From positions 1 through 60,379 of the IMG/VR virus record IMGVR_UViG_3300043331_000752: a stretch of DNA of 60,379 bases, one strand, 5' to 3'. The position numbers and the translations under genes were made by a program. Positions 10,690 through 58,115 of this stretch are shown piece by piece. The notes below the pieces were generated by a model that saw nothing but the letters and a program-made list of their open reading frames with translations, did not search any database and was not told where the DNA came from. Every line of letters starts with the position of its first letter. Position 1 is the stretch's first letter. The stretch comes from a virus.

Positions 10690-10691
10690 GG

Positions 10692-41746: not shown

Positions 41747-44590
41747 TTACCGGACGGTCAGCGCCCCCGGCGCGACCGCCGACACGGGATCGACCACGGT
41801 GATTTGGATCTCCGGCGTGGCGGTGCCGGCGGTGGCACCGAACATCGGCTCGCCAATGCAGAAGTAGGTATTCGCAGTTCCGACCAACGTCGCGAGCGGC
41901 ACGCGGAGCTTGGCCAGCGGGCCGCCGACCACGTGGTTGTAGGCAATGGTGCGCGTGATCGTGTAGTTGCCCGATGAGGTGCCGCAGCGGACCCGGAACG
42001 CCGAGGGCACCCCGTCCGCCGTGTTGGGATCCCAGGTCATTTCGAGCGACTTGAGCCGGATGTTGTACGCGACGTCATCGATGGTGGCCGAGGTGGTCGC
42101 GAAGTCTGAGTCTGGGTTTGTGACAGTCACCGTCCGGGACCCGAGGGTCGCCCCGTCCGCACATACGAGATCCGCCGTGATGCTCGTGCCGCTCGCAATG
42201 ACGACGTTCTGGAACACGCAGCCGACGCCGTTGATCGTGACCAGCGTGCCGGCCACGAAGTTCGTCCCGGTGATCTCCACCGCGGTGATGGCCCCCTGAA
42301 ACACGGTCGACGGCGCCATGCCGCTGACGGTCGGGGCCGTGGTGTTGGCCGGCGCCGAGGGGGTGATGACGGATTCCGTGGCGTAGGCCGAGTAGAGGCA
42401 CCCGCCCGGCTTGTCACACGCATTCCTGGCCCGGGTCTTGTAGCGGTACTCCGTGCCGGCCGCGGTGGTGGTGTCGTCGTAGGTGCCGTCGCCCGCGAGC
42501 GGCGCGCACGTCAACTCGGCGTAGGCGCCCGCGCCGATTTTCTTGTCGATACAGAAGTTATCCTCATTATTGCTGTTATCGGTCCAGGTCACGCGGACAT
42601 GGGACGTCCCCGTGATCTGCGCGGTCCCCATGCCCGACGGGGCGGCCGATGGCCCCGTCGCGGTGTACTTGAAGCTCGCCGAGGTCACCACGTCAGGGTC
42701 AACGAATCCGCTGACCGAACACTTCAGCCCGTCACACGTCGGCGACGTGGGCCAGCTCGTGACCGTGCAGGGGGTCGTCGCGAGGGTATAGGTGCACGAG
42801 CCGTAGGTTTCCGTGTATCCGGGCATGTCGGTGGCCCGGATCGCATAGGTCCCCGTCCCGAGCCCCGACGTCATGGACGGATTGAGGACTTGCTCTGGCA
42901 GGCTCTCGACCTGACTCTGCGTGCTCGGGGCGGGCACGGTCGTGGTGATCCCGTCAATCCCGACGCGGGAGATTTCGACCGCGCCAGGCGCGGACCCTCC
43001 GGTTCCGGCGAGGGCTGCGACCTCGGCATCGCTCAGCGTGCGGTTCCAGATCGCCGCGGCATCAATGTCCACCGAGGGGCACTCGCTGATCGGCGTCGAC
43101 AACCGGAAGCAGCCGACCCACGTGCGATTCGGCGTGCCCGCGTGCTGGGTCGTGGTGGTGGTGTTCGACGACGAGATTCCGTCGACGAACACTCGGTGTG
43201 TCACCGCGTCGGTGCGATAGATCAGGCTGTGCCAGGCGTTGGTGCTCGGGAGATCCGACCACGCCAGCATCGGAAAGCCAGACCGCCAGCAGCCCACTTT
43301 GATCCCGAGCGGTCCGGCCCCATCGGGGTCGTGGAATCCGCAGAAGGTCCCCGTATTGGTGCTCTCCGAGACCGAGGCGTAGAGGAGCGCCGGGCTCGCC
43401 GGGGTCGAGGAGTACCGAAACCGGATGGCGATCGACTTGGAGGCATTGACCGACGGGTGGCCGACGGCATTCCCGGTCCAGTAGTTCTGGCTCGCCGCGG
43501 TCAGCCGCGTCGCCTGCCCCAGGAATCCCGTAATCCATGTGGGATTATTCGTGCCCGTCAGATGGTTCGCGCTGCGCGCGTCGTTCGACGTGGTGCCGGT
43601 CCCCTCGTCAAACTGGTACTCCGAGATCGGCTCCTGTTGCGACGGCGGCGGGGGCGGCGGGGGCGGCGGCGGCGGCAACGGGGGGTCCGGGGGGCCCGGA
43701 TCGCTGCCGATGCACCCGACGCGCTGCGTGGAGATGACGATGTTGTCGGCATACCGGAACATCTCGGGATGCGCGTCTTGCGGGTCCTGGCAGTTGGTGC
43801 TCGCGCAGTTGTAGAACGCCGACAGGAGCGTCTGGAGATGCTCGGCGTTCGCGATCGTGACCACATTGGCGGTCGGGTAGTTCGCGAGCTGCGTCCCGTT
43901 GATGTAGTACTGGACCGCGCCGTCGAGCACGTTGGGCGCGGAAGACATTTTGAATCGGGTTTCCAAGCACACCCACTGCCCGAGCGGATAGCCCCCGGCG
44001 CTCTGGTTCATATTCGGCCAGTAGTAGGTCGCCGGGCTGTGGCTGTACGTGATGAGGGCCGCGCTGCCCCACTGCGAGTGCCCGATGAACGCCGCCGTGC
44101 CGGTCCCACCGACCGGGGCCATTTGATGAATCCAGAACTTGTGGCCGATCACGCTCTCGCGGAAGTTCGTGGACCACTTGGCGTAGTAGCGGATCCAGTA
44201 GTCTTTCCCGGTGTACCGCGGCCACGTGGCGACCAAGTAGCCCGCGCCCCCGTTCGACGGATCGCCCGTGTTCGATGGAATGCCCGGTCCCCGTGGGGGA
44301 TATCGGATTTCGAGACCCCGTGACCCCAAGAACCCGATGCCGTCGCGGAGCGTGAAGCCGCCGCCCGTGGACCCCAGGGCGGGCGATTTGAAGATCGACC
44401 GGTTGAAGTCGCCGGTCCCGACCGCGCGCCCCTCCCAGTTCTCGCAGAAGAGCACGTAGGGCTGGCTGCACACCGCTTCCTGGCCGTTTTGCGCCTCGAC
44501 CGGGCGCGGGCCCCAGTGGGCGGTGAGTCCGACCAGTACCGCCGCCGTCACGAGCCAGAGACACACCCCGCCGATGATCCACCGTCGCAT
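41747..44590 (-). CDS. Large multidomain exported glycan-binding protein
   Basis: 947 residues from ATG 44590 with GGAGAG. An N-terminal signal peptide or anchor (WIIGGVCLWLVTAAVLVGL) is unusual for a tail protein. Residues 40-270: lyase-type jelly roll (YWIRYYAKWSTNFRESVIGH). A poly-proline linker follows. Residues 330-540: LamG/concanavalin-like domain (WHSLIYRTDAVTHRVFVDGI; IWNRTLSDAEVAAL). Residues 640-790: fibronectin-III-like; 795-870: IPT/TIG (SGMAPSTVFQGAITAVEITG). C-terminal beta domain. Likely binds host carbohydrate. Confidence 0.7.
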   Translation of the reverse strand: MRRWIIGGVCLWLVTAAVLVGLTAHWGPRPVEAQNGQEAVCSQPYVLFCENWEGRAVGTGDFNRSIFKSPALGSTGGGFTLRDGIGFLGSRGLEIRYPPRGPGIPSNTGDPSNGGAGYLVATWPRYTGKDYWIRYYAKWSTNFRESVIGHKFWIHQMAPVGGTGTAAFIGHSQWGSAALITYSHSPATYYWPNMNQSAGGYPLGQWVCLETRFKMSSAPNVLDGAVQYYINGTQLANYPTANVVTIANAEHLQTLLSAFYNCASTNCQDPQDAHPEMFRYADNIVISTQRVGCIGSDPGPPDPPLPPPPPPPPPPPSQQEPISEYQFDEGTGTTSNDARSANHLTGTNNPTWITGFLGQATRLTAASQNYWTGNAVGHPSVNASKSIAIRFRYSSTPASPALLYASVSESTNTGTFCGFHDPDGAGPLGIKVGCWRSGFPMLAWSDLPSTNAWHSLIYRTDAVTHRVFVDGISSSNTTTTTQHAGTPNRTWVGCFRLSTPISECPSVDIDAAAIWNRTLSDAEVAALAGTGGSAPGAVEISRVGIDGITTTVPAPSTQSQVESLPEQVLNPSMTSGLGTGTYAIRATDMPGYTETYGSCTYTLATTPCTVTSWPTSPTCDGLKCSVSGFVDPDVVTSASFKYTATGPSAAPSGMGTAQITGTSHVRVTWTDNSNNEDNFCIDKKIGAGAYAELTCAPLAGDGTYDDTTTAAGTEYRYKTRARNACDKPGGCLYSAYATESVITPSAPANTTAPTVSGMAPSTVFQGAITAVEITGTNFVAGTLVTINGVGCVFQNVVIASGTSITADLVCADGATLGSRTVTVTNPDSDFATTSATIDDVAYNIRLKSLEMTWDPNTADGVPSAFRVRCGTSSGNYTITRTIAYNHVVGGPLAKLRVPLATLVGTANTYFCIGEPMFGATAGTATPEIQITVVDPVSAVAPGALTVR

Positions 44591-44601
44591 CGCGTCTCTC
44601 C

Positions 44602-45738
44602 TTATCGCCCCACGCCCAGCGGGAGCAGGCGGCGCAGGCCGCCGGACGCTACCAAGTTGTCGAGTCGAAACACCGCGCCCGGCTCGGTCCTCACGCCTCG
44701 GATCCCGACCCGCGTGCCGCCTGCAATCCCCGTGTCCGTTGTGGTCAGCACCAGTCCGCCATTCTTGTGCCCACGCAACGTCGAGCCCTCGACAGAGCCC
44801 AGCAGCAGTTCGCCGTTGGCCGCGTCCGTCGTGTCCTGCGCGAGCTGCGTCTCCGCCCCGGCCACGAACTTGCTCCAGTCGTGATCGCTGCCGCCCCCGT
44901 TCACGATGACCTGCCACAGGTAGGCCGTGTCCGCCGCCGACGCGAAGCGGAGCAGCACCCCGCCCGCGGACACGCCAGGCCCGATGGGGATAGACGCCTC
45001 CACCACCGTCACCTGACACCGATGGTCGATCGACGGCAGATCGTGCTCCGCCCGCGCGTGGCCGTCGTTGTCCTCGGCCACCACCTTGGCCTCGTTGCTG
45101 ACGCGCTCCAAAGACGTGCCGGTCACTTCCGTCCACGTGAGATCCCCGGCGAGCGCCGCGGAGTCCGACCCGGTGAACGTATCGGTCAGCACGGCGGCCT
45201 CGACCGGCGCGTCGAGCGACAGGGCCGAAAGAGCCAGCGCGCTCGCGATCAGCCACTCCCGGCGCGACCATCGCCCCCGCGGCCCGTGCCCGAGCCCGAT
45301 CGACGCGGCCATGACATCCAGCCAGTCCAGGCTCGCGCGGGTCGGCTCAGCCCAGATGCGCCCGCCGAGATAGATTTCGAGCACACCCTTGGACGGTTGG
45401 AGCGGCTTGACGCGCGTCCCATCCTGTCGCGCGTGTTGGGTCAGGGACTCCGCAATCGCCACGTCCAGCGTGGGCGCCGCGAACGTCACGCCCATCGCGT
45501 TGCCGAGGCGCGTCTTGGTCGCGCCCGGCATCGGGTCGGTCAGGCTCTCCCCGAGATACTCCGCGTTTCGCGGGTCCTGGCGCACCGGCAGCGCCAGCCA
45601 GGCGCGCCCGTCGACTTGGGACCCGTCCGGCCGGAGGTCGATCGACGCCGCCCCGGGCTGATCCTGGCCGCGCACGCGGAACGGGTCCACGACCGGTCGG
45701 CCCGTGCCCGTGTAGTCCGAGAGGTAGTAGTGCATCAC
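44602..45738 (-). CDS. Tail protein with internal Tat-like hydrophobic segment
   Basis: 378 residues. Residues 1-130 (DPFRVRGQDQPGAASIDLRP; DPRNAEYLGESL) and the C-terminal LamG-like domain from about 186 (DTFTGSDSAALAGDLTWTEV) both resemble the protein at 55828-56895, so the two are paralogues. Between them lies SRREWLIASALALSALSL and then a VEAA cleavage-like site, looking like a twin-arginine signal; an ATG at residue 143 could start a separate exported product. Confidence 0.65.
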   Translation of the reverse strand: MMHYYLSDYTGTGRPVVDPFRVRGQDQPGAASIDLRPDGSQVDGRAWLALPVRQDPRNAEYLGESLTDPMPGATKTRLGNAMGVTFAAPTLDVAIAESLTQHARQDGTRVKPLQPSKGVLEIYLGGRIWAEPTRASLDWLDVMAASIGLGHGPRGRWSRREWLIASALALSALSLDAPVEAAVLTDTFTGSDSAALAGDLTWTEVTGTSLERVSNEAKVVAEDNDGHARAEHDLPSIDHRCQVTVVEASIPIGPGVSAGGVLLRFASAADTAYLWQVIVNGGGSDHDWSKFVAGAETQLAQDTTDAANGELLLGSVEGSTLRGHKNGGLVLTTTDTGIAGGTRVGIRGVRTEPGAVFRLDNLVASGGLRRLLPLGVGR

Positions 45739-46556
45739 TTATGGATGAGGTTCACGAGGACCTCGCCGGCCGCGACCGCGTTGTTATCGGTGTCCCCGGA
45801 ACCCGTGGTCAGGCAGTAGCTGATGCCCGTGCTGAACGCGATCCCGAATGGGCCGAGGTTAATCACGTGGCCCGCCCCCGTGGCATCGCCGGGAATGGCG
45901 AACCGGCCCGCGATGCCGGTCGCGGAGGAACACGTCGGGGCGCTCGACAGGTTGTAGAACCGGATATATCTGACCGCCGGGTTGGTGTTCGTGACCGAGA
46001 TCACGTAGAGCGTCCCGGCCGAGTTCTTCACGTTCGTGGCGTTCGTGGACGCGGCGGAGATCAACGAGTGCCACGTCGCCCCGTCGCCGCTGGCGAGCGT
46101 GACGCGCGGTGAGTTCGCCGCGGTCGCCCCAGTTCCGCCGACGATCCCGGTCTGGCCCGGAATCAGGTTGACCTTGGCGCGATTAGATTCGTCCCAGTTG
46201 TCCAGCTTCTGGAGCGACGTGGCCGCCGCCTCCAGGTTGCCCCCCGCTTCCAGCGCCCGCGTCCCCAGCGTGGCCTCCGTCGCCCGGGTCCCCAGCGTGG
46301 TCTCCGTCGCGGCCCCGATCGGCAGCGGCAGGGACGTGGCGCTCACGGGCTGCACTGACTCCGACCCGTTCGTCTTCACCCGGCCGCTGTTATCGGTCGC
46401 GATGGACCGCGTGTTGCCGGATTCGTCTTTGCCCCCGATCCGCACCGGATTCGAGGTGGCCGGCGTGCCGTCCGGCGTCGGGCCCACGGCCTGCGCCCAC
46501 GCGAGCCCAGTCCACGCGCACAGCACCAGGGCCAGGACTCCGCTGCGTCGGATCAT
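45735..46556 (-). CDS. Exported fibre-like protein
   Basis: 273 residues from ATG 46556 (ATGA overlap). A clear signal peptide, GVLALVLCAWTGLAWA, is followed by a Gly/Asn/Thr-rich sequence with SETTLGTRATEATLGTRALE style repeats, typical of phage fibre proteins, and a C-terminal beta domain. The secretion signal on a gene in the tail block is unusual. Confidence 0.65.
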   Translation of the reverse strand: MIRRSGVLALVLCAWTGLAWAQAVGPTPDGTPATSNPVRIGGKDESGNTRSIATDNSGRVKTNGSESVQPVSATSLPLPIGAATETTLGTRATEATLGTRALEAGGNLEAAATSLQKLDNWDESNRAKVNLIPGQTGIVGGTGATAANSPRVTLASGDGATWHSLISAASTNATNVKNSAGTLYVISVTNTNPAVRYIRFYNLSSAPTCSSATGIAGRFAIPGDATGAGHVINLGPFGIAFSTGISYCLTTGSGDTDNNAVAAGEVLVNLIHK

Positions 46557-46954
46557 GCCGGCACCTCTGCCATCCACGCGAGCTTTTGGCTGGCCGCATC
46601 CGTGATGGCGTGGATCACGTTCAAGTTCTCGATCGTCAGCGGCTGGATGAGCTGCTGGCCGGGAAAGAGGAGGAAGCCGGTGGCCATCGTGACGCCCGTG
46701 CCGCCGAGCGCGATCGGGTTCGTGTTGGTCGGCGGCGCCGAGAGGTAGATCCGCCGCGCCGCCTGGCTCGAGAGCGCCGCCTCGGTGCCGGTGGCCACGG
46801 TGGCTTGGCCGGCCGCGAGCGTGATGCCGAGGACCAACGCGTCGAGATACTCCACGACGATCGGCAGCCCGCCGTCGGTCCCGACCTGCCGGGTGAGGAG
46901 CTTGTGGGTGGCGGTGCCTGCGGGCGGGACGTACCCGAGGAACAGATCAGCCAC
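46553..46954 (-). CDS. Small structural protein
   Basis: 133 residues, start GTG 46954. Beta-rich with ALVLGITLAAGQATVATGTE and an IYLSAPPTNTNPIALGGTG segment. It lies between tail-tip genes. Likely virion component; family not recognised. Confidence 0.55.
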   Translation of the reverse strand: MADLFLGYVPPAGTATHKLLTRQVGTDGGLPIVVEYLDALVLGITLAAGQATVATGTEAALSSQAARRIYLSAPPTNTNPIALGGTGVTMATGFLLFPGQQLIQPLTIENLNVIHAITDAASQKLAWMAEVPA

Positions 46955-46976
46955 GACGAGGCCCTCCCGGGGTCAT

Positions 46977-47804
46977 CTAGCGTTGCTCCCGCCAGCGAAC
47001 GCCGCTGGGCGGCATGTCCAACGTGCCGGTCAAGCTGCGCGACATCGCGGCCTCCGGGGTCACACAGAACACGGGGAGCAGATACGGCGTCTGGGGGTCC
47101 GTTTCGCTGAATGTGCGGCCCGCCGGATCCCAGAGCCAATGGGGAATACCCCCGCGCATCACGGCGTGGGCCGTCTCACGCGGCCGGTCGGCGGCATTGG
47201 GGGTGACCGCGGCCAGCGCCGCTTTGATCGCGCGGGCGTTCACGCGCGTCATGGGCGGCCACGCGGCGACGAGATCCCGGCCTCGATGCGGCCGCTCCAC
47301 CCCGTGCTCGCGCCCATAGACCGGGCTGGTGGGCAGCTCCGTCCGGGTGCCGAGAAACCAGCCGCCAGCGAGACGCGCCGGGGCGCTGACGCTCCCGTAG
47401 AGGTGGAGGTACCAGCCGCGCTTGGCGACCGGCGTCCACTCGGCGACCGCGTGGAGCGCCGTCGGCCCGGCCAGATGCCCGCTCGTGATCGGCGCCCACG
47501 GGAAGCCTTGCCCGATGGAGGTGCCCACCGAGGTGCCGTCGGTGCTCCACCGCACGTCGACCGACGCGCCGATCGACACGAGGTAGTCGGCGCGCGGGAG
47601 GACCAGCGCGTTCGGGCTCCGCGTCTGCCCGGTGCCGGCGTCGTACCCGAGGTATTGCGCCGCGGTGCTCGACGCCTGCCAGGACCGATGCAGGTCGCCC
47701 GTCTCCACCGCCCACGCAGGGAAGTCGGCGTGCGCGCTCGACCAAACCAGCGCCAGCGCGCGCCCCAGGTGGTCCCAGAGGATGCGGAGACTGGTCGCCG
47801 CCAT
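46977..47804 (-). CDS. Distal tail protein candidate
   Basis: 275 residues, the gene right after the tape measure (TAATG overlap), the usual place of Dit-like genes. Mixed beta: YLVSIGASVDVRWSTDG, WFLGTRTELPTSP, and a C-terminal GIPHWLWDPAGRTFSETDP. No sequence match to Dit recognised; the role is from position. Confidence 0.6.
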   Translation of the reverse strand: MAATSLRILWDHLGRALALVWSSAHADFPAWAVETGDLHRSWQASSTAAQYLGYDAGTGQTRSPNALVLPRADYLVSIGASVDVRWSTDGTSVGTSIGQGFPWAPITSGHLAGPTALHAVAEWTPVAKRGWYLHLYGSVSAPARLAGGWFLGTRTELPTSPVYGREHGVERPHRGRDLVAAWPPMTRVNARAIKAALAAVTPNAADRPRETAHAVMRGGIPHWLWDPAGRTFSETDPQTPYLLPVFCVTPEAAMSRSLTGTLDMPPSGVRWREQR

Positions 47805-50800
47805 TAGGCGATTGCCCCCACGACGCGGCCCCCGCGCGTCGCCGTCTCCAGCGCGCGGCGAATCTTGCGCAATTCCTGGACCGTCTCGGGACCATCCCCC
47901 GTGAGGCCCGACAGGCTGGCCATCAGCGCCGCGACATCAGCCACCCCGCTGGCCTTCACCTCGCCGAGCGCCTGCGCGGGGTTGCGATTGAACGCTTCCG
48001 TAAACGCCGGGCTGTAGGCCGCCGAGCGCGCGTTGACCACGTACTCCCCGCGCGCCATCATCGCGGGCACGCTGTCCCGATGGGCGAGCCCCTGGGTCAC
48101 CCACCCGCCCGAGGCGAAACTCCCGACGCCGCCACCCTCGCCGGTGGTGCCGCCCGGCGCGGCCCCCGGGCTGTCGGGGCCGCCCGTCGCCCCCCCGGGA
48201 GTCGATCCACCGAAGCCGGACCCGACAATGCCACCCGGCTCCGCGGCAGACATCGCGGCGTCCATCAACCCGCTGATCTCGGCCGCCGTACTGCCAAGAT
48301 CGACGGCCATGTCCGCGGTCGCGTCCGCCAGATCGATCAGCCCGCGTTCCATGTCCTGCGCGCTCAAGGTGTTCAGGTCCATGGTCGGCGCGAGGTCTCC
48401 CATGCTCCGCTCCATGTCCTGCACGCTCGCCGTCGTCAGCGCGGCGGTGGTCGCCAAGTCGGTCAGGCGGCCCTCCAGGTTGCTCAGGCTGGTCGCCGCC
48501 GCCGTGGCGGCGGGTCCGATCGTGGCAGTCGTCCCCGCGATCTTGTCGCCGATCTTGTCGCCCAACGCGCCAAACGCGGCACCGAGCAACGCGGCGCCGG
48601 GCGCCCCGCCGAGCAAGCCGCCCAGCGCCGTGCCCACGATCGTGCCGACCGTGCGGCCCACTTGCTCCTCCAGCACCAGCGTCCGTTGCTTCTCCAGCAC
48701 CAGTCGCTTCTGGGACTCGGCGGTCGTCTGTTTCTCCAGCGTCACGGCCTGTTGCGACAGCGTCGTCTGCCGCTCCTGGGAAAACAGCTTCGCGACCGCG
48801 TCCCCGAGGATGCCGAAGCCGCTGCCCCCGGCACTCCCGCTGCTCGCCGAGGCGCTGGACCCAAAGGACGTGCTGGCCAGCGCGATGAGGCCTTGGACCG
48901 CCTCGGCGGCCATGAAGGCCGCGATCTCGCGGAGCACCGCGTCCAGCGCCGTCTTCCAGATGTCGTCGAAGTCGTCCAGGTTGCCCTTCATCAGCTGGAA
49001 GAACGATTCCTCAAACGTGTCGGCCAGTTCGTGCGCCACTTCCGCGCCAGCCTGCCCGAAGCGATCCATGGTGGTGCCCCAGCCCGCGGCCTCTTGCTGA
49101 AAGCGCGCCGAGAACACCCCCCAGGCGTCGCCGCTTTCGGTGGCCACCAGCCGCTGGTGCTCCAGAATGAGCGCCCCGGCCCGCTGCTCGGCCGTGATGC
49201 GGGTCTCGATGATCGCGTTCATCCGCGCCTGCGCGGCGATCTCCAGCTCAAAGCCGCGATCGACTTTCCGTTCCTCCAGCTCGAGATCCCGGGCGAGGCT
49301 CAGTTCCTTGATCCGCAGCTTGGCGTCCTCGGCCTCCCGCACCCCCAGTACTTCGTCGTCCAGCATCTTGCGGAGGGCGTCGCGCTCGCGCTCCAGAATC
49401 GCGAGGCGCCCCGCCGACGTGGACTGCGTGAAGCGCAGGATCTCCGCGGCGGACTCCTGGCGAGACGCCGCCTCCGGCTCGCTGATTTCCGCCCGCTGCT
49501 CGCCCAGGATTGTCTGAATCTGCCCCTCGGCCGCGAGGGCGGACGCGATGCGGTCGCGCGCCAGCTTCTGATCCGCCAGGTGCATGGCCTCGTTGCGCTT
49601 CTCGTAGTCGTCCACCGCGTCCATGTACAGCTTGGCGAGCGCGGTGCGCGTGTTCTGCTCGGCTTGCAGCTCGGCATCCAGGCGTTGGCGGAGCGCCCGA
49701 TCCAGCAGTTCGTTGATTTCCTGCTCCAGCTGTTCGGCATCGCGCCGCCGCGCCTCGCTGGCCTCGACGTACAGCTTGCGCTCGGCGTCTATCGCGGTCT
49801 TCCGCGCCGCGATCGCCGCCGGCGACTCGGCCGGGACGCGCGGGGTGAGGACGTCCTGCGGCGGGGGCCGCTCCCCCATCTCGGCGCGCAGCCGCGTCGC
49901 ATTCTCGATGATCTCTTTCCCGAGCTTGAAGCCGGCCGCGGCGGGATTGGTCAGGAACTCCAGCAGGCGCTGCCAGTCGGTGGCGATCTGCTTCGCCGTC
50001 TCGGCAAAGCCGACCACCAATTCCACGGACCACCCCTTCATCCGCTTGACCATGCCGGTGAGCGCCCGGTCGAATTGATCGGCCATGCGATCGAAATGGC
50101 GCGCCATGTTCCGGGTGGCGTCGTCGGTGATGACCCCCGTCTCGCGCATCGCGGCGATCAGGCCGGTAAAGCCCGAGTCGGCCAGCGTCTGCAGCACCGC
50201 TTGCAGCGCCTTGGTGCGGGCCCCGAAGATGTCTTGCATCGCGGCCCCGCGGCGCAGCGGGTCCTCGATCTTGACGACCGCCTTGGCCACGGCTTCCAGC
50301 ACGTCTTCGGCGGACGCGCCCGCCCGCACCAGCGCGTCCAGGTTCACCCCGATGTCCGAGAACGCTTTGGCCGACTCTGTCTTGCCCGCCAGGACATCGG
50401 CGAGCGCCTGGTTGACCTTGCCCAGCCCCAGCGCGAGCGACTCGGGCGCCTCGCCGGCTTCGCGCGCCGCTTGCTCCAGCGCCTCCAGGCTGGAGACCGC
50501 CAGTCCGGTGCGCCGGGACATGTTATCCAGCCGCTCCACCTCGTCGGCCAGGCTCTTGGCCATCAGGCCGATGCCCGCGACCACCGCCCCGATCGCCAAC
50601 ACCAACCCGCCCGGCCCCACCAGGAGCCCGACCCACGTGGTGGTCGCCCGCGTGACGTCGCCCAGCGGGCCGGGAATGTTGCCCAGCGCCTGCCCGTAGG
50701 CCGTCAGCGACGTGCCCACCTTGTCCGACGCCTTGGCTTGGTCCGCGAACGCCTTTTCGCTCGCCCGGACTTGGGCGTCCAGCGCCTTGAGCTTGGCGTC

Positions 50801-50980
50801 CCACTTCGCCGTGTCGAAGGCGCCACTGATCGCCGTCCCGGAGGCCGTTGCCGACTTGGCGGCTTTGTCGAACGAGGTCGCCACCATCGCCATGTTCCGC
50901 TCGGTGGTGGCGACGCCCTTCTCCAGCTTGGAGGTTTCGAGGGCGATCTGCCCTTCCAGCTGCGCGACGGTTAGGGCCAT
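47804..50980 (-). CDS. Tail tape measure protein
   Basis: 1058 residues. Long coiled coils (about 1-60 and 360-640), a transmembrane-type hydrophobic segment LLVGPGGLVLAIGAVVAGIG near 135, repeated IDLADATADM/MERSMGDLAP segments around 860-930 and a Gly-rich C-terminal part. It sets tail length; at about 1.5 angstrom per residue the tail would be near 160 nm. It overlaps the next gene by one base. Confidence 0.9.
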   Translation of the reverse strand: MALTVAQLEGQIALETSKLEKGVATTERNMAMVATSFDKAAKSATASGTAISGAFDTAKWDAKLKALDAQVRASEKAFADQAKASDKVGTSLTAYGQALGNIPGPLGDVTRATTTWVGLLVGPGGLVLAIGAVVAGIGLMAKSLADEVERLDNMSRRTGLAVSSLEALEQAAREAGEAPESLALGLGKVNQALADVLAGKTESAKAFSDIGVNLDALVRAGASAEDVLEAVAKAVVKIEDPLRRGAAMQDIFGARTKALQAVLQTLADSGFTGLIAAMRETGVITDDATRNMARHFDRMADQFDRALTGMVKRMKGWSVELVVGFAETAKQIATDWQRLLEFLTNPAAAGFKLGKEIIENATRLRAEMGERPPPQDVLTPRVPAESPAAIAARKTAIDAERKLYVEASEARRRDAEQLEQEINELLDRALRQRLDAELQAEQNTRTALAKLYMDAVDDYEKRNEAMHLADQKLARDRIASALAAEGQIQTILGEQRAEISEPEAASRQESAAEILRFTQSTSAGRLAILERERDALRKMLDDEVLGVREAEDAKLRIKELSLARDLELEERKVDRGFELEIAAQARMNAIIETRITAEQRAGALILEHQRLVATESGDAWGVFSARFQQEAAGWGTTMDRFGQAGAEVAHELADTFEESFFQLMKGNLDDFDDIWKTALDAVLREIAAFMAAEAVQGLIALASTSFGSSASASSGSAGGSGFGILGDAVAKLFSQERQTTLSQQAVTLEKQTTAESQKRLVLEKQRTLVLEEQVGRTVGTIVGTALGGLLGGAPGAALLGAAFGALGDKIGDKIAGTTATIGPAATAAATSLSNLEGRLTDLATTAALTTASVQDMERSMGDLAPTMDLNTLSAQDMERGLIDLADATADMAVDLGSTAAEISGLMDAAMSAAEPGGIVGSGFGGSTPGGATGGPDSPGAAPGGTTGEGGGVGSFASGGWVTQGLAHRDSVPAMMARGEYVVNARSAAYSPAFTEAFNRNPAQALGEVKASGVADVAALMASLSGLTGDGPETVQELRKIRRALETATRGGRVVGAIA

Positions 50981-50981
50981 G

Positions 50982-51227
50982 TCACGTCCGCCGATCGGTC
51001 CCGCCCAGCGCGGCGTTCAACATCGCCACGAAATCCAGCCCCGCATCGGGGGCCGGCTCGCTGGGGGGCTCGGGCCGTGCGGGCGTCGCCGCCTCGCCCA
51101 ACAGATCGTCGGGCGTGACGCGGTTCCGCACGATCTTGCCGGAGACGTTCAGCAGATGCGCCGTCTGCCACGCGATCCGGCGATAGCGCGCTTCTTCGCG
51201 AGCGCGGTACCCCCGCAGGAGCGCCAT
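50982..51227 (-). CDS. Tail assembly chaperone, frameshift (T) part
   Basis: 81 residues from the only ATG, 51227, which lacks a ribosome site. The same frame is open upstream to about 51380 and there encodes WLDFLEDEAATWLGLSPVQC followed by ARLTPRAIMALLRGYR, which looks like genuine chaperone sequence. It lies in the -1 frame relative to the upstream chaperone, so it is probably made as a fusion by programmed frameshifting, as with lambda gpG/gpGT. Confidence 0.7.
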   Translation of the reverse strand: MALLRGYRAREEARYRRIAWQTAHLLNVSGKIVRNRVTPDDLLGEAATPARPEPPSEPAPDAGLDFVAMLNAALGGTDRRT

Positions 51228-51295
51228 GATCGCTCGCGGCGTCAGCCGGGCGCACTGGACCGGGGACAGCCCCAGCCAGGTCGCCGCCTCGTCCT

Positions 51296-51380
51296 CTAGG
51301 AAATCGAGCCATCCGTCGAGGCCGCCGGGCTGCTCGAGATCCCACTCTCGGGCGCCGCGTCGGCCATCGGAGGGCGGCCA
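51296..51380 (-). other. Overlap window for -1 programmed frameshift
   Basis: In this window the G frame and the T frame are both open; the G frame ends in TAG at 51296-51298. I could not pick one canonical slippery heptamer. The T frame across the window reads as sensible protein (REWDLEQPGGLDGWLDFL), which indicates selection on both frames. Confidence 0.55.
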
Positions 51381-51724
51381 TTCTCCGCAGCGTCGCCGTC
51401 GCCGTCGTCGGCGCGGAACGGCAGGTTAGACACGTTGAACGCCTGAATCAGCACCAGCGCCGCCGCCAGATACCCCGGGCCGGTCGCCCAGTGCGCGTCC
51501 AGTTGCCGCTGGAACACTTGCGGGGTGAGCCGGCGGTTTTGCCGCCGCACCTGAACCCAGAGCAGTTGTTCTGTCTGTTCCAGCGTCAACCCATGCCCCG
51601 CGCGCACGATCCCAAAGAGCGGGCGCTCCAGCGCCCGCTCGGATTCCCGGAGGATCGGCGGCGTAAACTCGATGTCGTAGACGCGCCCGTCCAGTTCCCA
51701 CGTGTGTCGCGCGGCACTCGCCAT
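51296..51724 (-). CDS. Tail assembly chaperone, first (G) part
   Basis: 142 residues. HTWELDGRVYDIEFTPPILR is typical of chaperones of this class, and TLEQTEQLLWVQVRRQNRRL and a helical core with GYLAAALVLIQAFN follow. It ends in a low-complexity acidic/serine tail whose last 28 codons overlap the open -1 frame. It coats the tape measure during tail assembly and is not in the virion. Confidence 0.75.
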   Translation of the reverse strand: MASAARHTWELDGRVYDIEFTPPILRESERALERPLFGIVRAGHGLTLEQTEQLLWVQVRRQNRRLTPQVFQRQLDAHWATGPGYLAAALVLIQAFNVSNLPFRADDGDGDAAENGRPPMADAAPESGISSSPAASTDGSIS

Positions 51725-51816
51725 AACGGTCCGGTCCCTTCTCGTGGGCGCGGGAGCCCGCTCGGGCTCCGGCGCCACGTACGTGAGTCGCCCTGACGCG
51801 CGCGCGGGCGCGCGTC

Positions 51817-52251
51817 TTACGCCAAGATGGGCGGCTCGGTGATCGTCAGCGTGACGTTGCTTTCCAGGACGTTGTCCACCGGGGCCGTGATCGGACAGCC
51901 CGTCACCTGCGCGTTGGGAAAGTTCCACGTGGTCTGCGGGCCGTCCGGGAAGATCAGCCGGTGATCGCGCTTGGTCCGATTGACGAAGTCCGCCACGAAG
52001 CCCACGGTGGCGTTGTGGGTGACGTGGCTCGGAATGAAGTTGACGGCGAACGTGAGCTCCCCGGCGTCGAGCAAGCCGGCCAGCTTCTCCTCCCAGTTGC
52101 CCAGCGTGTCGTGGCTGGTGACCACGAGCGTGGCGCCCTTCATCGACGGCCCCGTGATCGACTTCACCTCCGCGATCGTGGCCCAGGTGGGGGGACTCCC
52201 CATGTCACTGCGCTGCAACCGCGTGCCCTTGCCGAAGATCTGCCCAGGCAT
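51817..52251 (-). CDS. Major tail tube protein
   Basis: 144 residues. SITGPSMKGATLVVTSHDTL, then NWEEKLAGLLDAGELTFAVN and VGFVADFVNRTKRDHRLIFP, is the common tail tube fold of siphoviruses. The gene order (tube, chaperone, tape measure) agrees. It polymerises into the hexameric tube. Confidence 0.85.
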   Translation of the reverse strand: MPGQIFGKGTRLQRSDMGSPPTWATIAEVKSITGPSMKGATLVVTSHDTLGNWEEKLAGLLDAGELTFAVNFIPSHVTHNATVGFVADFVNRTKRDHRLIFPDGPQTTWNFPNAQVTGCPITAPVDNVLESNVTLTITEPPILA

Positions 52252-52308
52252 TGTCGGTGCCCTCCCTTTCGTCTATCTCCGCGTCGCCTGCCCGCGGGCC
52301 AGAAGCCG

Positions 52309-52818
52309 TTACGCCGAACAGCCCACGATCATCACGTCGTAGGTGTACGTGCCGACCGTGGCCGCGCTGGCTACGTTGATGAGATCCGCCGTGGAGGCCG
52401 TCACCGCCACCCCGGCACTCGGGGCCACCCAGAGATTGGCGCCCCCCGGGGGAATCACCACGCCCGCCGAGACGGCCGAGATCCACACCACCCCGTTGCT
52501 GGCCCCGCGCCCCACCGTGATGTTGCCGGGACTGGTGGACCGGTTGAGCACCGCCAGCGCCTTGAGCTTCAGCAGGTTGAACGCCGCCCCGTAGACGTTG
52601 AACAGCACGCCGTTGACATCCAGGTCCGCGTTGGCGGACTGCGCCAGCGACAGCCCGGCGGCCGGCGTGGTGTACAACAGATCTGCTTGGCCCGTGCCGG
52701 TGCCGTTCGCGATAAGCCACTCGAACAGCAGTTGCGGGTTGTACGACGGCGTCGCGAACGCCGCTGCCTTGGTGTCCACCGGCGTCCCCATGAACTTGAA
52801 CGATCCTGCGAGTGGCAT
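52309..52818 (-). CDS. Virion structural protein
   Basis: 169 residues. LLYTTPAAGLSLAQSANADL, then DVNGVLFNVYGAAFNLLKLK and a beta-rich C-terminus, match a family seen in many siphovirus head/tail modules and virion preparations; exact position in the particle is not known. Confidence 0.7.
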   Translation of the reverse strand: MPLAGSFKFMGTPVDTKAAAFATPSYNPQLLFEWLIANGTGTGQADLLYTTPAAGLSLAQSANADLDVNGVLFNVYGAAFNLLKLKALAVLNRSTSPGNITVGRGASNGVVWISAVSAGVVIPPGGANLWVAPSAGVAVTASTADLINVASAATVGTYTYDVMIVGCSA

Positions 52819-52854
52819 TGACTTACCCTCCCCTTGTCGCGCTCCCGCGCGTGC

Positions 52855-53262
52855 TCACACCGCCTCCACCGCTACCGCCACGTTGAACGCCCAGCGAGCG
52901 CGCCCCGTGGCATCCGGCCCCAGATCAAACGGCGGCTGAATCGGCACGACGCGCAGATAGCGGGTCCCCTCGATCAGCCGATTGGTCACCTGACTCAACG
53001 CCCGGTGACACTGCTGCGCCCGGTTCTCCGCCGACGGCGTGGTCGCCGCGTGGACGACCACCTGGACCCGCGGCCGCTCGATCGCAGTGCCCCCGTCATC
53101 GTGGGTTTCGTCCGGCAGCTCCCCGCCGTAGGCCACCACGTGGGTGAACGGCCCCGGCCCCGTGGCCGGCACCGTGGCGAGCAAGCCCCCGAAGACGTCG
53201 ACCCCCGGGGTGCCGAGCCCCGCCTGCTGCAACACCGCCTGCAGCGCCGTCACCGTGCTCAT
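52855..53262 (-). CDS. Tail terminator protein
   Basis: 135 residues. A helical start (TALQAVLQQAGL) is followed by strands with RPRVQVVVHAATTPSAENRA, a helix and WAFNVAVAVEAV at the end: the layout of lambda gpU-like terminators. It caps the tail tube and joins it to the head. ATGA overlap with the next upstream gene. Confidence 0.75.
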   Translation of the reverse strand: MSTVTALQAVLQQAGLGTPGVDVFGGLLATVPATGPGPFTHVVAYGGELPDETHDDGGTAIERPRVQVVVHAATTPSAENRAQQCHRALSQVTNRLIEGTRYLRVVPIQPPFDLGPDATGRARWAFNVAVAVEAV

Positions 53263-53501
53263 GGGTCACTCGGCCCGATCTGTAGGCCGCATCGGCGGCA
53301 GAACACGGTATCGGGGCGATCCAGGGACGTGGAGATCGCCAGCTGATCGTGCGCACACATCGCGTCGGACTGCGTCGCCGCCGCCACCACCGGCGGCATG
53401 AGCGTCGAGGCATCGAGCACCAGCGCCAGCAACTCGGCCTCGGCCAGCAACACCTTGGCCTGCGCGATCAGGCACGTGACGTGTTCGCGCAGCGGGTCCA
53501 T
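53259..53501 (-). CDS. Small protein with C-terminal CxxC
   Basis: 80 residues from ATG 53501 (TGATG overlap). Helical (CLIAQAKVLLAEAELLALVL), with one CRRCG near the end. No family recognised. Confidence 0.55.
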   Translation of the reverse strand: MDPLREHVTCLIAQAKVLLAEAELLALVLDASTLMPPVVAAATQSDAMCAHDQLAISTSLDRPDTVFCRRCGLQIGPSDP

Positions 53502-53797
53502 CAGTTGGCGTCCCGCACCAGCATCACGACCTCCAGCTGGTGCACGTCCCCGTTGCTCATGGTCACGGTGCACGTCACCCAGTAGTCCTTGCCGGTGACC
53601 CCGCCCGACACGCGGGCGAACACCGTCAAGTCCACCGGAGTCGGGCTTGGGGTAACCACCGTCAGGCCCGTCTGTGCCACCACGCTGGCCGAGCCCACGA
53701 TCGTGCTGGTGCCGGCGGGCAGCGTGAAGTCAAACGCAATCGTCACGGTCTCCGCCGCCCGCTTGGTCGCCGTGTCGCGCAGCGTCGGGGGCGCCAT
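53501..53797 (-). CDS. Small beta-rich phage structural protein
   Basis: 98 residues. IAFDFTLPAGTSTIVGSASV, then VTGKDYWVTCTVTMSNGDVH, is a pattern I have seen in many phage adaptor regions; a beta-sandwich. Function unknown, probably part of the virion or assembly. Confidence 0.65.
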   Translation of the reverse strand: MAPPTLRDTATKRAAETVTIAFDFTLPAGTSTIVGSASVVAQTGLTVVTPSPTPVDLTVFARVSGGVTGKDYWVTCTVTMSNGDVHQLEVVMLVRDAN

Positions 53798-53798
53798 G

Positions 53799-54977
53799 TC
53801 ACGCGTCTCCAGCGACGGGAGCGAGCGCCCGGCCCACCACCGTCACCCAGGGACGGCCGGCGACGCCGGCCATCGCGCGGCCCGTGCCCGACGCCATCAC
53901 GCGGCCGCGAATCGGGTCGAGCGGGCGGCCGATGATGCGCACCGTGTACGAGGCGCTCGCGTCCTGCGGCGCCACCAGCACGGCCTCGAGATGCTCGCTG
54001 AGCCCAACCAGCTCGTCGCGCAGCCACGTCGACGCGCGCGTCAACGACTCCCCCAGTAGGATCGTCTCGGCGAACTGCCGCGCGACGCTCACCAGGCGGG
54101 CCTCGGACAACCCAAGCGTCTCCACAGCCTGGCGCTGCACCAGCCGCTGGAGGGTGTCGACCAGCCCTAGCGTCTCGCCGAATTGCGCGGTGGTCAGCTT
54201 GAACGCGGCCAACTGCTCGGACAGCCCGGCGAGGTCCGACAGTGTCTTGTCCGCGCGGCGTAGCAAGCTCTCCGTGGCCAGCAAGTTCTCCACGGTGAGG
54301 CGCTCCGCCCGCTTGGTCAGGGTCTCGGTCAGCCCCGCGGTCTCGCTGAGCGTCTTCTGCGCCATCTTGAGCAGCGCCTCGCTCAGCCCCACCGCGTCAC
54401 TCCGGGTGAGCTGGACTTGCACGTCGAGGTTCTCGGAGAGCCCGAGCGTGTCGCCTACGTCCGCGATTACGAGCCGCGCCGCCTGGAGCTGCCCACTGAG
54501 CCCCACCGTCTCCCCGACCGTGCGCGCCAGCTGCTTGACCAGGGCTTCCGCCAGGCCGACCGCCTCGGTCGCCGTCCGGGACACCCGCTTGGACAGCGTC
54601 TCCGACAGCCCCACCGTCTCCGCGAGCGCCTTCTGCACCTGGCGCGAGAGCGTGTCCGACAGCCCAGCGGTTTCGGCGAGCGCCTTCTGCGCCTGGCGTC
54701 GCAACGTCTCGGTCAAGGCGACGGTCTCCGCGATCGGCGCCTTGCTGGTGAGCCGCACCAGCGTTTCGCTCAGGCCCACCGTCTCCGCCTTCGTGGTGCT
54801 GACGAGCTTGAGCAGCGCCTCAGTCAGCCCGATGGTGTCGCCGACGCCCTGTGTGATGGCGCCGCCGGCAGCTGGGACGACTTCGCGATCGAACCACGCC
54901 TCGACCGCCAGCGCCGGGTCGCACCAAGCCGACACCCGGTACGTCGTGCCGCGATCGAACGTCCCGAGGCGAGCCAT
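53799..54977 (-). CDS. Protein with about 16 copies of an 18-residue repeat
   Basis: 392 residues, TGATG overlap. After a 50-residue N-terminal domain (GTTYRVSAWCDPALAVEAWF) come about 16 tandem copies of an 18-residue unit, typical copy ETVGLSETLSKRVSRTAT, ending near residue 335. A Gly/Ala/Arg C-terminal domain follows (GTGRAMAGVAGRPWVTVVGR). The even 18-residue period suggests a long fibrous helix or solenoid. Possibly a head fibre or whisker, since it sits between head-tail joining genes. Confidence 0.7.
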   Translation of the reverse strand: MARLGTFDRGTTYRVSAWCDPALAVEAWFDREVVPAAGGAITQGVGDTIGLTEALLKLVSTTKAETVGLSETLVRLTSKAPIAETVALTETLRRQAQKALAETAGLSDTLSRQVQKALAETVGLSETLSKRVSRTATEAVGLAEALVKQLARTVGETVGLSGQLQAARLVIADVGDTLGLSENLDVQVQLTRSDAVGLSEALLKMAQKTLSETAGLTETLTKRAERLTVENLLATESLLRRADKTLSDLAGLSEQLAAFKLTTAQFGETLGLVDTLQRLVQRQAVETLGLSEARLVSVARQFAETILLGESLTRASTWLRDELVGLSEHLEAVLVAPQDASASYTVRIIGRPLDPIRGRVMASGTGRAMAGVAGRPWVTVVGRALAPVAGDA

Positions 54978-55831
54978 CAGGCGGTCTTCGTCAGCCGGAG
55001 CGACGACCCGGCCTTGACCGTGGATTGCGCGGCCGCCTCGGAGCCGTGCCACAGCTCCATGTTCCCGGCGACGCTGACGACCATGATCCCGCTGAGGTAG
55101 TAGAGGACGTCCGCGTTGGCCGTATCGACGTCCGTGGTCTGGCCCCACCCGGCCGTCGACTTGGCGCGGGCCGAGAACCCCGAGAACACGCCGCCCGGCG
55201 CGGCCACGTGGTCCTGATCGGGCACGTCGTCGGAGGCGAGCGTCGCCGCGGTGAGCCAGTTCAGGAAGGCGACGAACGACGTCACCGTACCGTCGTAGTT
55301 GGCCGACAGCTTGTGCCCGGTGGTCGTCGCGGCCGACTGGAGGATCAGGAAGTACTCGAAGATGAAGGTGCCGGTATTGGTGGCCACCGTCAGGCCGGTC
55401 ACCTCGGTCGGCGTGGTGGTGCTGTTGGACTGATCGGCCGACAGCCGCTTCACAACGACGGGGTTCTCCAGCGGGTTCGCCTTGTTCAGGAAGAACCCGA
55501 GCGCGTCGATGTAGACCAGGCACTCGCCGGCCAGCATGGTCGTGCTGTACAGCTCGTAGTCGGTCCCGTTGGCGTCGTACAGCAGCGTGACCACCACGGC
55601 ACTGCTGGCGTGCTTGTTGCGAATCGTCATGAGCCGCACGCTGCGCTGCGTGCTCGACGCCGGGGCAGCGAGAATGTCGGTGGTGGTGGCCGTCGTGATA
55701 GCGGTCAGCTGGCGGCTCGGAGTGAACGCCCCGGCATTGTGGTCCGTGTAGCTGACCTGGACGTCGACCGTTACGGCCGCATCGGTCACCAGCTGCAGCT
55801 TGTCGGTGGTGTTGGCGAGGAACAGACTCAC
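54977..55831 (-). CDS. Virion-associated structural protein
   Basis: 284 residues from GTG 55831 (GTGA overlap). Begins SLFLANTTDKLQLVTDAAVT and continues VDVQVSYTDHN, a conserved start of a common phage structural family, then a beta-rich body with RNKHASSAVVVTLLYDANGT. Position in the particle unknown. Confidence 0.75.
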   Translation of the reverse strand: MSLFLANTTDKLQLVTDAAVTVDVQVSYTDHNAGAFTPSRQLTAITTATTTDILAAPASSTQRSVRLMTIRNKHASSAVVVTLLYDANGTDYELYSTTMLAGECLVYIDALGFFLNKANPLENPVVVKRLSADQSNSTTTPTEVTGLTVATNTGTFIFEYFLILQSAATTTGHKLSANYDGTVTSFVAFLNWLTAATLASDDVPDQDHVAAPGGVFSGFSARAKSTAGWGQTTDVDTANADVLYYLSGIMVVSVAGNMELWHGSEAAAQSTVKAGSSLRLTKTA

Positions 55832-56895
55832 CGCACCGCTCCCGCCGCCTGGCGAATCTTCCACTTGGGATGGTCGCGATAGTGGGGGCGGATCGCCGCG
55901 TAGTCCGCGACGCGGAAGTTATCGCCCTTCGCGGTGCCGCCGTTGCTCGGGGCGGCGCGGAGCCCCCCGTACCGCCCGCCCACTACCACCCCGTCGATCG
56001 CCGTGTCGGTCACGGACAGCTGGGGCAGTGAGCCGTACGTGGCGAGGAGGAGCGACCCCAACATCCGCAGTTGGAATCGGCCCCCGGCGGCCATGGTGGT
56101 GGGGCGCGTCTGCAGCGTGGTCTCGGTGCCGCCCACGATCTTGCCCAGGACGACTTCGTTGGTCACCGACGCATTCTGGAGGCCACCGACCATATAGAAC
56201 GTCTGCCCGCTGGTGGCGACGCGGCCCAGCACCGCGAGATAACAGACGTCGTCCACGGTGTCGCACGTCCAGTTGGTCAGATCCATCTCGACGGCGAAAT
56301 CGTTGCCGGCCAGTTGGAAATCGGCCCGCGCCTCGCCGAGGCCCATCCCGATGGGGGCATGCAGCGCGTTTCCCTGTATGGCAAAGCCGGTGCCCGTGAA
56401 TTCCACCCAGCTCAGGTCCGGCCCCAGCGTGCTGGAGTCGGCCGCGTTGAAGCTCTCCGTCCCCACCGCCCCGCCGGAGATCCCGCGCACGCGCGACTGC
56501 GCCGGCCCCAACGTCATCACGTACTCGCCGTGCGGCGTGGGCCGGAGCGGCGCCCACCCGGTGGCCGGCGGGTCCAAGAGCAGCCGGGTCATCCACTGGC
56601 GCGCCGTCTCTCCCCGCGCCCACGTCTTGCCCAGCCGACTCTCCAGCGCGTCCTGATTCGCGCCACCCATCACCTCGTCGGGGTCATCGGCCACCTTGCG
56701 AATGCGGCCCCCATCCGACTGATCGCTCGGCAGGTAGACCAGGCACTGGTTGAGCCCGTCTCCGGTGGGCGAGGCGCCGCCGTCCGCGCGCAGGTCGATC
56801 GCGCGCATCCCGACCTGCTCGAAGCCGCGCGGGCGGCAGGGGTCGTGACTGGGGAACGGCGTCCCCGCCCCGACGTATTCGCTGAGGGCCAGCAT
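55828..56895 (-). CDS. LamG-like structural protein, paralogue of 44602-45738
   Basis: 355 residues. N-terminal domain DPCRPRGFEQVGMRAIDLRA and YLPSDQSDGGRIRKVADDPD; C-terminal concanavalin-type domain from about 145 (SFNAADSSTLGPDLSWVEFT; FQLAGNDFAVEMDL). Both halves parallel the protein at 44602-45738. No hydrophobic segment here. Probably binds carbohydrate on the particle. Confidence 0.7.
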   Translation of the reverse strand: MLALSEYVGAGTPFPSHDPCRPRGFEQVGMRAIDLRADGGASPTGDGLNQCLVYLPSDQSDGGRIRKVADDPDEVMGGANQDALESRLGKTWARGETARQWMTRLLLDPPATGWAPLRPTPHGEYVMTLGPAQSRVRGISGGAVGTESFNAADSSTLGPDLSWVEFTGTGFAIQGNALHAPIGMGLGEARADFQLAGNDFAVEMDLTNWTCDTVDDVCYLAVLGRVATSGQTFYMVGGLQNASVTNEVVLGKIVGGTETTLQTRPTTMAAGGRFQLRMLGSLLLATYGSLPQLSVTDTAIDGVVVGGRYGGLRAAPSNGGTAKGDNFRVADYAAIRPHYRDHPKWKIRQAAGAVR

Positions 56896-56896
56896 C

Positions 56897-57586
56897 TCAG
56901 TCGATAGTCAAATCGTAGGTTGTTTGGAGTGCATCCGAGCTGGCCAGGTTGATCGTCGAGAAGGTCAGGTGGCTCCACGTGACCACCGAGCCGGTCGACG
57001 CGGACTCCAAGCAGAACTCGACGACAGCGGCCGATGCATCCACGGTGTTCGTGCCAATTGTCTGATAGATGTTCGCGCCATTGGTTGTCTGGCTGCCCGT
57101 CGCCCGCGTGTTGTCCGGGTTGTACTGTGTCGTCAGCTCGGTCCCGCACCCGGTGTCCGCTTCCGCCGCACCGGTGGCGTTCGTCCCGAGCCCATGGAAA
57201 TTCAGGTTGTCGATGACGTCGCCGCACTCGGTCCCCGAGTTCGCGTTGAAGCAGTCGCGAAGCGCCGTCTCGCCTTCGTTGACGATCAGGTTCTGGAGCG
57301 GCCCCACGTGCCGCAGCTTGACGCAGTCCAGGCCGTTCGAGGCGAAGGCGGCCGGCGCCATGAGCCGCGCCATCATCGAGAGCCCCACGTCCTTGACGAA
57401 CGCCGCCTGGGCCAGCTGCACCGACAGCGGGGTCGCGCACCCGCCGGCCACCATGGGCCGGAAATGCTCGACCGTCAGCTTCCCGCCGAAGCCACGCGGC
57501 GCCGCCGGCCCGCGCAGCCAGAGATCCGCCGCCACGCCGCCGAGCAGCGCAGCCAGGCTCACCAGGGCGATCGTTTGCTTCCGCAT
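56897..57586 (-). CDS. Exported or anchored protein in the adaptor module
   Basis: 229 residues. The N-terminus TIALVSLAALLGGVAADLWL is a signal peptide or anchor. The rest is mixed with an even number of cysteines (GCATP, DCV, DCFNANSGTECG, GCGTE, FCLE), compatible with disulfides formed outside the cytoplasm. Family not recognised. Confidence 0.6.
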   Translation of the reverse strand: MRKQTIALVSLAALLGGVAADLWLRGPAAPRGFGGKLTVEHFRPMVAGGCATPLSVQLAQAAFVKDVGLSMMARLMAPAAFASNGLDCVKLRHVGPLQNLIVNEGETALRDCFNANSGTECGDVIDNLNFHGLGTNATGAAEADTGCGTELTTQYNPDNTRATGSQTTNGANIYQTIGTNTVDASAAVVEFCLESASTGSVVTWSHLTFSTINLASSDALQTTYDLTID

Positions 57587-57599
57587 TGTCGTTCTCCCT

Positions 57600-58115
57600 C
57601 TACGGAGCCACTTCGACCCCGGTGATTGTCACCCAGCCATCCGGCGCCGTCGTGTACGTCAGCCGCGCCGGCCCGCGGTAGTCCGCGCTCCCCGCCTTCA
57701 AGCCCAGCTCGGCGACGCGCACCCCGTCCGGCGGCTCGACCGTCAGCCCCTTCACGGGAAAGACCAGCGTCATCGTCCCGGCCTTGACCTGGCGGCGCAG
57801 GATCGTCACCGGCACGTCGGGATCGAACAGCACCCGGCCCGGCGGCCCCGTCACCGTCGAGCGACCCTTGCCCCAGCGGATCAGGAAGGCGAGCGCCGCC
57901 TGGATCTCGCGCGGGAGCTTCTGGCCCACTGGCGCGCCCGACACCCCAACCCCGCCCGAGGGCGCGACGTCGAGGGACACGGCCGGCGTCGGCGGGGCAC
58001 TGCCGGGCCGAATGACCGCCGCGCCGAAGGACTCGCCGAGCTTGGCCCCATCGCCCGCCGCCCACCCCAGCCCCGCGCTCAGCACCACCAGCAGCAGCGC
58101 CGCGCCGATCCGCAT
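57600..58115 (-). CDS. Exported protein in the adaptor module
   Basis: 171 residues. A clear signal peptide, IGAALLLVVLSAGLGWAAG, then a beta-rich body with VKAGTMTLVFPVKGLTVEPP and a C-terminal GWVTITGVEVAP. No cysteine. Follows the gp10-like gene at 13 bases. Function unknown. Confidence 0.6.
   Translation of the reverse strand: MRIGAALLLVVLSAGLGWAAGDGAKLGESFGAAVIRPGSAPPTPAVSLDVAPSGGVGVSGAPVGQKLPREIQAALAFLIRWGKGRSTVTGPPGRVLFDPDVPVTILRRQVKAGTMTLVFPVKGLTVEPPDGVRVAELGLKAGSADYRGPARLTYTTAPDGWVTITGVEVAP

Follow-up and report, generated by a model that had tools for sequence, protein, structure and literature searches.

Putative export signals on fibre-type proteins encoded among the late genes of a temperate siphophage

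The IMG/VR virus record IMGVR_UViG_3300043331_000752 (here the window, a whole linear record of 60379 bases with ~70% guanine plus cytosine) carries among its late genes four, 65, 67, 81 and 82, whose products appear to start with signals for export, and a fifth, gene 66, with a possible signal inside the protein. All five are located on the minus strand. Gene 65 (41747..44590, 947 amino acids) shows a putative Sec signal peptide (MRRW...PVEA followed by QNG) and a ConA/Laminin_G_3-like domain, the Laminin_G_3 match of 2.5e-5 being below the Pfam curated cut-off; fibronectin- and IPT-like domains were recognised by eye and the mature part contains 22 cysteines. In gene 67 (45735..46556, 273 amino acids) a putative Sec signal peptide (MIRRSGVLALVLCAWTGLAWA followed by QAV) precedes a fibre-like linker and a C-terminal jelly-roll with Cys209 and Cys248. 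Gene 81 (56897..57586, 229 amino acids) combines a signal peptide or anchor with a phrog_5417 domain with paired cysteines in GCGTEL and EFCLE, and gene 82 (57600..58115, 171 amino acids) has a signal peptide followed by the motif GESFGAAVIR. An initial annotation of the same DNA had proposed signal peptides or anchors on these four proteins and a twin-arginine-like segment inside gene 66, and all five open reading frames were found again at their positions. The start of gene 67 lies inside a 4-base overlap with the end of the cytosolic gene 68 (46553..46954, minus strand), gene 66 overlaps the stop of gene 67, and short gaps of 11, 12 and 13 bases separate gene 66 from 65, gene 83 from 82 and gene 82 from 81, with the sequence GGAGA preceding genes 65, 81 and 82. 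Since the starts are fixed by these overlaps and short gaps, a start-call artefact was rejected for genes 65, 67, 81 and 82.

Signals were called with a home-made rule asking for a positive n-region, an uncharged hydrophobic core and an AxA site or lipobox. According to this rule genes 65, 67, 81 and 82 are of the Sec signal peptidase I type (class SP, not LIPO), in line with the initial annotation. When applied to the whole window the rule flagged 6 of 89 genes, with 2.75 expected from shuffled N-termini, and among genes 59–89 it flagged 4 of 31, with 1.24 expected. Further signal-peptide- or lipoprotein-like genes, beyond those of the initial annotation, are found at 19720-20214, 21139-21312 and 32734-33216 (genes 32 and 53 by the rule, gene 35 by eye). 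The four late proteins taken as exported contain 30 cysteines in 1528 residues, compared to 30 in 5490 for the other genes 62–89 (gene 66 set aside).

The initial annotation had also called for a survey of relatives, and this revealed that export signal and cysteine pair tend to go together in the families of both gene 67 and gene 81. For family 67, scans of viral contigs yielded 4 and then 28 loci and a phage collection 11 records, of which 8 were read. Among the 36 rows with an assigned N-terminus the cysteine pair was present in all 9 signal-bearing copies and in none of the 27 others (Fisher p 1e-8, kinship ignored), a count from which L100 (start not known) was left out and in which L115, cut at the contig edge in its 5' end, was taken as signal-less; L122 was left out of the set A5, and L033 and L034 are duplicates of L105 and L110. 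Inspection by eye showed an AxA-type site followed by Gln in 7 of the 9 signal-bearing copies (the window, L032, L099, L103, L104, L107 and L111), and a MADN-type start occupies the place of the gene 67 signal peptide in some of the cytosolic relatives (L098, L113, L117). In one record (G016, L111 5191-6354) a signal-bearing copy with the pair adjoins a cytosolic copy that lacks the pair. In L099 the gene at 3327-5111, immediately upstream of the signal-bearing relative, shows a signal-like stretch, MLHKLCLVLAAMMVILEATVAFG, ~44 residues in, and its true start may therefore be internal; this gene was not counted.

The C-terminal domain of gene 67 has a confident all-beta predicted fold (predicted local distance difference test score, pLDDT, 86.7), which is a jelly-roll judging from its PDB matches; a Foldseek search of the domain against PDB gave nothing at E <= 0.001, the best matches being coat proteins and nucleoplasmins. 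Similar predicted folds are common among uncharacterised phage proteins in BFVD, including one of Synechococcus phage S-SRP01. The same domain was identified, at 28.7-36.2% identity, in 11 records from Caulobacter phages KSC, S2B and Cr30, S-SRP01 and others; the eight copies read (the other three records being, by their match rows, repeats of one phage or of a very near one) differ from gene 67 in having neither signal peptide nor cysteine pair and are annotated as hypothetical.

For family 81 the viral contigs yielded 29 loci in one scan and 55 in the next, with many in common, resulting in 56 usable rows of which 53 are different (L044, a duplicate, and the truncated L064, L095 and L096 were dropped, and L029 is cut at the N-terminus). 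A hydrophobic anchor precedes the domain in 7 of the 56 rows (the window, L043 and L045-L049) and 49 were not called anchored, among them L073 with an ambiguous segment; the unanchored relatives have another N-terminal part where the anchor stands. Two alignment columns hold Leu/Gly in 49 of 49 unanchored and 3 of 7 anchored rows and Cys/Cys in the remaining 4 anchored rows, with no row having a single Cys, giving an association between anchor and pair of p 1e-4 (Fisher, L073 left out). The domain matches phrog_5417 in gene 81 (1.4e-10) and in the other 20 of the 21 members of the set A6, and 8 of the 21 also match the tail-fibre family phrog_4176; what sets gene 81 and the other six anchored rows apart from these families is the anchor or signal peptide in front of the domain. 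The predicted structure of gene 81 (mean pLDDT 59.5) was too poor for a fold search, and gene 81 had no match in the phage collection at E 0.01. A cytosolic relative searched against the same collection gave three weak matches, two of them annotated as tail fibre or tail collar fibre, and gene 79 gave one.

The pairing of genes 82 and 81 recurs as well. In L002 a gene 82 homologue with a signal peptide is located directly upstream of an anchored gene 81 homologue, and in L005 and L007 this position is taken by short signal-bearing genes with the motif GE.F.A.V(I/V)(R/K) or a near form of it. The anchored gene 81 homologue of L004 itself has the motif at its N-terminus. In L006 a near form occurs in a signal-less gene, and L046 fails the pattern. 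Gene 78 (53799-54977), made up of repeated LSETVGLSE.L-type units, has relatives following the gene 81 homologue in L005, L006 and L007.

Gene 66 (44602..45738; 378 amino acids, or 377 when counted from the ATG at 45735) consists of an N-domain, the internal twin-arginine-like segment SRREWLIASALALSALSLDAPVEAA and a C-terminal domain that is ConA-like by eye. Its paralogue gene 80 (55828..56895, minus strand; blastp 1e-18), which matches the tail protein family phrog_4978 at 5e-6, is without this segment (SRREWL). Substrates of the twin-arginine translocation (Tat) pathway have an N-terminal SRRxFLK-like motif, a moderately hydrophobic core and an AxA site. When compared with these features, gene 66 contains SRREWLI with the Arg-Arg at 159-160 (counted from the GTG at 45738) and a moderate hydrophobic stretch with a 15-residue mean of 1.77, but these come only after ~158 residues. 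Before the segment there is an in-frame ATG at 45312, without a clear ribosome site. The segment described in the initial annotation is thus in place, and it may perhaps act as a signal (by way of the internal ATG) or as an anchor. In L007 the gene that follows the anchored gene 81 homologue (10453-11595) is similar to gene 66 towards the C-terminus (blastp E 0.026); a weak hydrophobic stretch inside this gene 80-like protein was not taken as support for gene 66.

Neighbouring genes, defined as those within 5 kb and called, with their starts, by our own scripts in the relatives, were examined for the same features. At 14 loci with exported or anchored copies 26 of 177 neighbours were flagged as having a signal peptide or lipobox, with 4.2 expected from shuffles, a higher share than at 58 loci with cytosolic copies (Fisher p 8e-6, genes of one locus being treated as independent; Mann-Whitney by locus p 7.5e-5; left out of the cytosolic set were L021, L027-L029, L052, L064, L073, L089, L091, L095-L097, L100, L115, L122 and the isolates). 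The mature parts of the 26 flagged neighbours contain an even number of cysteines in 14 cases, an odd number in 3 and none in 9, compared to 41, 59 and 51 among the 151 unflagged ones (even versus odd, Fisher p 0.003). This replaces an earlier count for which 28 exported proteins, including 8 family 67 copies, had been picked by hand, with 21 even, 2 odd and 5 zero versus 28, 32 and 38. Among the exported neighbours there are, by eye, a fibre-like protein (L104 7808-10441, not flagged by the rule, with 13 weak isolate records), a beta-helix-like protein (L046 7487-10003, for which no isolate relatives were found) and fibronectin-like proteins; of ten exported neighbours searched with Pfam, one matched clearly, to a DPBB lytic-transglycosylase domain, and the beta-helix-like protein of L046 matched NosD weakly. 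In six of seven loci tested the exported copies share their stretch with head, portal or adaptor genes (L103, L104, L110, L111, L007) or terminase (L002), the protein tested in L107 having no match, and since the head and portal families differ the phages are of different kinds. The portal protein of L104 (1078-4803) is 1241 amino acids long with a C-terminal match to the Alt-like ADP-ribosyltransferase family phrog_802 (1.9e-7). Gene 65 had no match in the phage collection (E 0.1) and two weak blastp matches, in L046 (5.8e-6) and L032 (7.7e-4), and tblastn of genes 65, 66 and 80 against the collected loci gave nothing at 1e-3. Against PDB sequences A2 gave two weak TarM matches (E ~0.1) and A1 none, and a search of genome contigs found a single relative, of the cytosolic form, in a Chloroflexi metagenome-assembled genome.

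It could be argued that the signals are remnants or chance products, i.e. hydrophobic N-termini of virion proteins captured from secreted host proteins and not leading to export. The small excess in the window would agree with this, as would the segment of gene 66, located inside a protein whose paralogue does without it. Remnants would however hardly explain the cysteine pairing, the even counts, a signal that is kept over diverged N-termini or the site followed by Gln, and we regard this as very improbable. Because of the cysteine pairs, the clustering among neighbours and the even cysteine counts in relatives, export of the products of genes 65, 67, 81 and 82 across the inner membrane is well supported and, as predicted from these sequences, highly probable.

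Both families usually fill a single slot: a single copy, of either the exported or the cytosolic form, is present in 24 of 24 records for family 81 (out of ~55, many being fragments) and in 26 of 28 for family 67 (the record of L122 and the 8 isolates left out, many records again being fragments). Therefore the two forms are suggested to fill one role and may do the same job; export does not imply absence from the virion. A decoy encoded beside a virion copy was for the same reason mostly rejected. The exported proteins could then be appendages of the virion that are translocated, oxidised in the periplasm and joined to the particle at or after lysis. The shared slot is consistent with such a route, as are the signal peptides on long fibre-like proteins (L104, L110), the signal on the beta-helix-like protein of L046 and the GE.F.A.VI(R/K)-type motif, which comes after the signal peptide in gene 82, L002, L005 and L007 and is N-terminal in the L004 homologue of gene 81. 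On the other hand, the export element takes the place of an N-terminal part by which the protein may be docked to the virion, and we know of no route by which parts join tailed phages at or after lysis, which also counts against it. We consider virion appendages unlikely, and it is still somewhat less likely that several tailed-phage lineages make fibre-type parts by the secretory route and let them meet the virion only at lysis.

The position of the genes was analysed using profile matches. Genes for terminase, portal, head morphogenesis and scaffold are found at 5147-114, the adaptor block at 59712-58128 and genes for tail terminator, major tail and tape measure proteins at 53262-47804. The group 82-81-80-79-78 is bordered upstream by the neck1/tail completion protein (58128..58520; phrog_5, 4.8e-8) and downstream by the tail terminator/connector (52855..53262; phrog_2595, phrog_123), and genes 69-65 lie downstream of the tape measure gene (47804..50980), these three being on the minus strand. 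Endolysin and integrase genes were also matched, no tRNA genes were found in the window, and no major head protein was identified among the 30 window proteins scanned with profiles. The ends of the record (1-114 and 60198-60379) fall between scaffold and adaptor genes and probably cut the region of the major head protein; since this protein was not identified and the genes next to the two ends are those for scaffold and adaptor, the record would seem to represent a permuted and almost complete temperate siphophage in which the head gene falls into the gap. Six patterns of the tape measure protein found no close relatives of it in the viral contigs. Between the head genes a small helix-turn-helix gene (966-1199) is excisionase-like or terminase-small-subunit-like, and the gene following endolysin (36193-36651), with a lipobox-like LLGC, is possibly an outer spanin. 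Genes 65, 67, 81 and 82 thus appear to belong to the late block of a temperate siphophage, their position suggesting late expression.

In a temperate phage such genes could be cargo of lysogenic conversion (morons) of the Lom type, located in the tail block by chance and altering the surface or periplasm of the lysogen. The integrase is in agreement with this, and lom of phage lambda is, according to an excerpt of PMC12309495, located between tail genes and carries a signal peptide, the same arrangement as here. Lom is however an outer-membrane beta-barrel, while the present proteins are jelly-roll, ConA-like and fibre-like and several per phage; no Lom-type beta-barrel family was found in the Pfam search of the window proteins and the gene 67 domain, the only one of the four proteins with a settled fold, is predicted to be a jelly-roll. 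Furthermore, the genes form part of a co-directional block in which neighbours overlap or are a short gap apart, and neither the phage-fibre domains nor the exchange of a single copy with cytosolic forms is expected of cargo. We judge this reading unlikely, if somewhat less so than virion appendages.

The anchored topology of the gene 81 family could also suit superinfection exclusion, in which entry of a second phage is blocked from the periplasm or inner membrane and not by covering a receptor. Known exclusion proteins have signal peptides, and the Ltp-like lipoproteins are phage-coded and extracytoplasmic (excerpt of PMC11480721), but these are of the lipobox type, a class to which genes 65, 67, 81 and 82 do not belong and whose family they do not match. 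The profile searches, in which padloc was not included, revealed no exclusion family, and gene 65 is large and multi-domain. Exclusion is accordingly a doubtful explanation.

Phage fibre-type proteins are expected to be without signal peptides. With no more than a Sec signal a protein crosses the inner membrane and, in a host with an outer membrane, would remain periplasmic until lysis. The initial annotation had suggested non-virion proteins, expressed with the late genes, on the surface of the infected cell; the signals look real, the genes have their place in the late block and their domains are of the fibre or binding type, and the surface is only one possible end point. A survey of phage diversity-generating retroelement proteins reports, in an excerpt of PMC6199706, no signal peptides on them, excerpts of PMC6157547, PMC3426561 and PMC3556154 contributed nothing to the point, and the titles and abstract openings covered (most subscription journals lay outside this scope) named no exported fibre-type proteins in late operons.

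The reading that we put first, tentatively, is occlusion of receptors at lysis by exported, fibre-type proteins of the late block. The products of genes 65, 67, 81 and 82, perhaps also of gene 66, would be late-block proteins with domains of the phage-fibre kind that leave the cytoplasm by Sec signal peptides or membrane anchors and fold outside with disulphide bonds. The export element appears to occupy the place of the part by which the protein is fixed to the virion, assuming this role for the N-terminus, and the exported form is therefore suggested to be freed from the virion. Late in infection the proteins would most likely reside in the periplasm or at the inner membrane, on its outer side, and, when freed at lysis, may bind glycans or envelope parts of the host and keep progeny and rival phages off the receptors on debris and on the dying cell. 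The signals, the cysteine pairing, the position and the recurrence are read in the sequences; the location beyond the inner membrane, the ligand and the purpose we infer. The probabilities of the readings given here overlap and do not sum to one.

Several observations weigh against receptor occlusion or the export on which it builds. The window alone shows a modest excess of signals, possibly due to chance, and the case therefore rests on the relatives, as it does on simple-rule signal calls and sequence comparison. In family 67 signal and pair each need three changes on the tree, of which well-supported branches force one, and the independent-pairs test found one pair and hence had no power. 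In family 81 the anchored rows form one clade, three of the seven lack the pair and the pair changes twice on the tree, which means few events. Gene 82 is without cysteines, no upstream signal-bearing gene 82-like gene was found in L004, L006 or L046, and neighbours at the cytosolic loci also exceed the shuffles (27 of 620 flagged versus 11.8 expected). A plain decoy of a virion protein is disfavoured by the single copy in each record, and no receptor-occlusion protein was found among the family matches.

Exported copies with matched cysteine pairs recur beside the structural genes of different phages. If these proteins are parts of the virion, the assembly of tailed phages would extend beyond the cytoplasm to a second place of assembly. 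If they are not, phages would possess late, exported binding proteins derived from fibres, a class with the potential to block receptors or rivals. In both cases such N-termini merit attention in the annotation of phage genomes.

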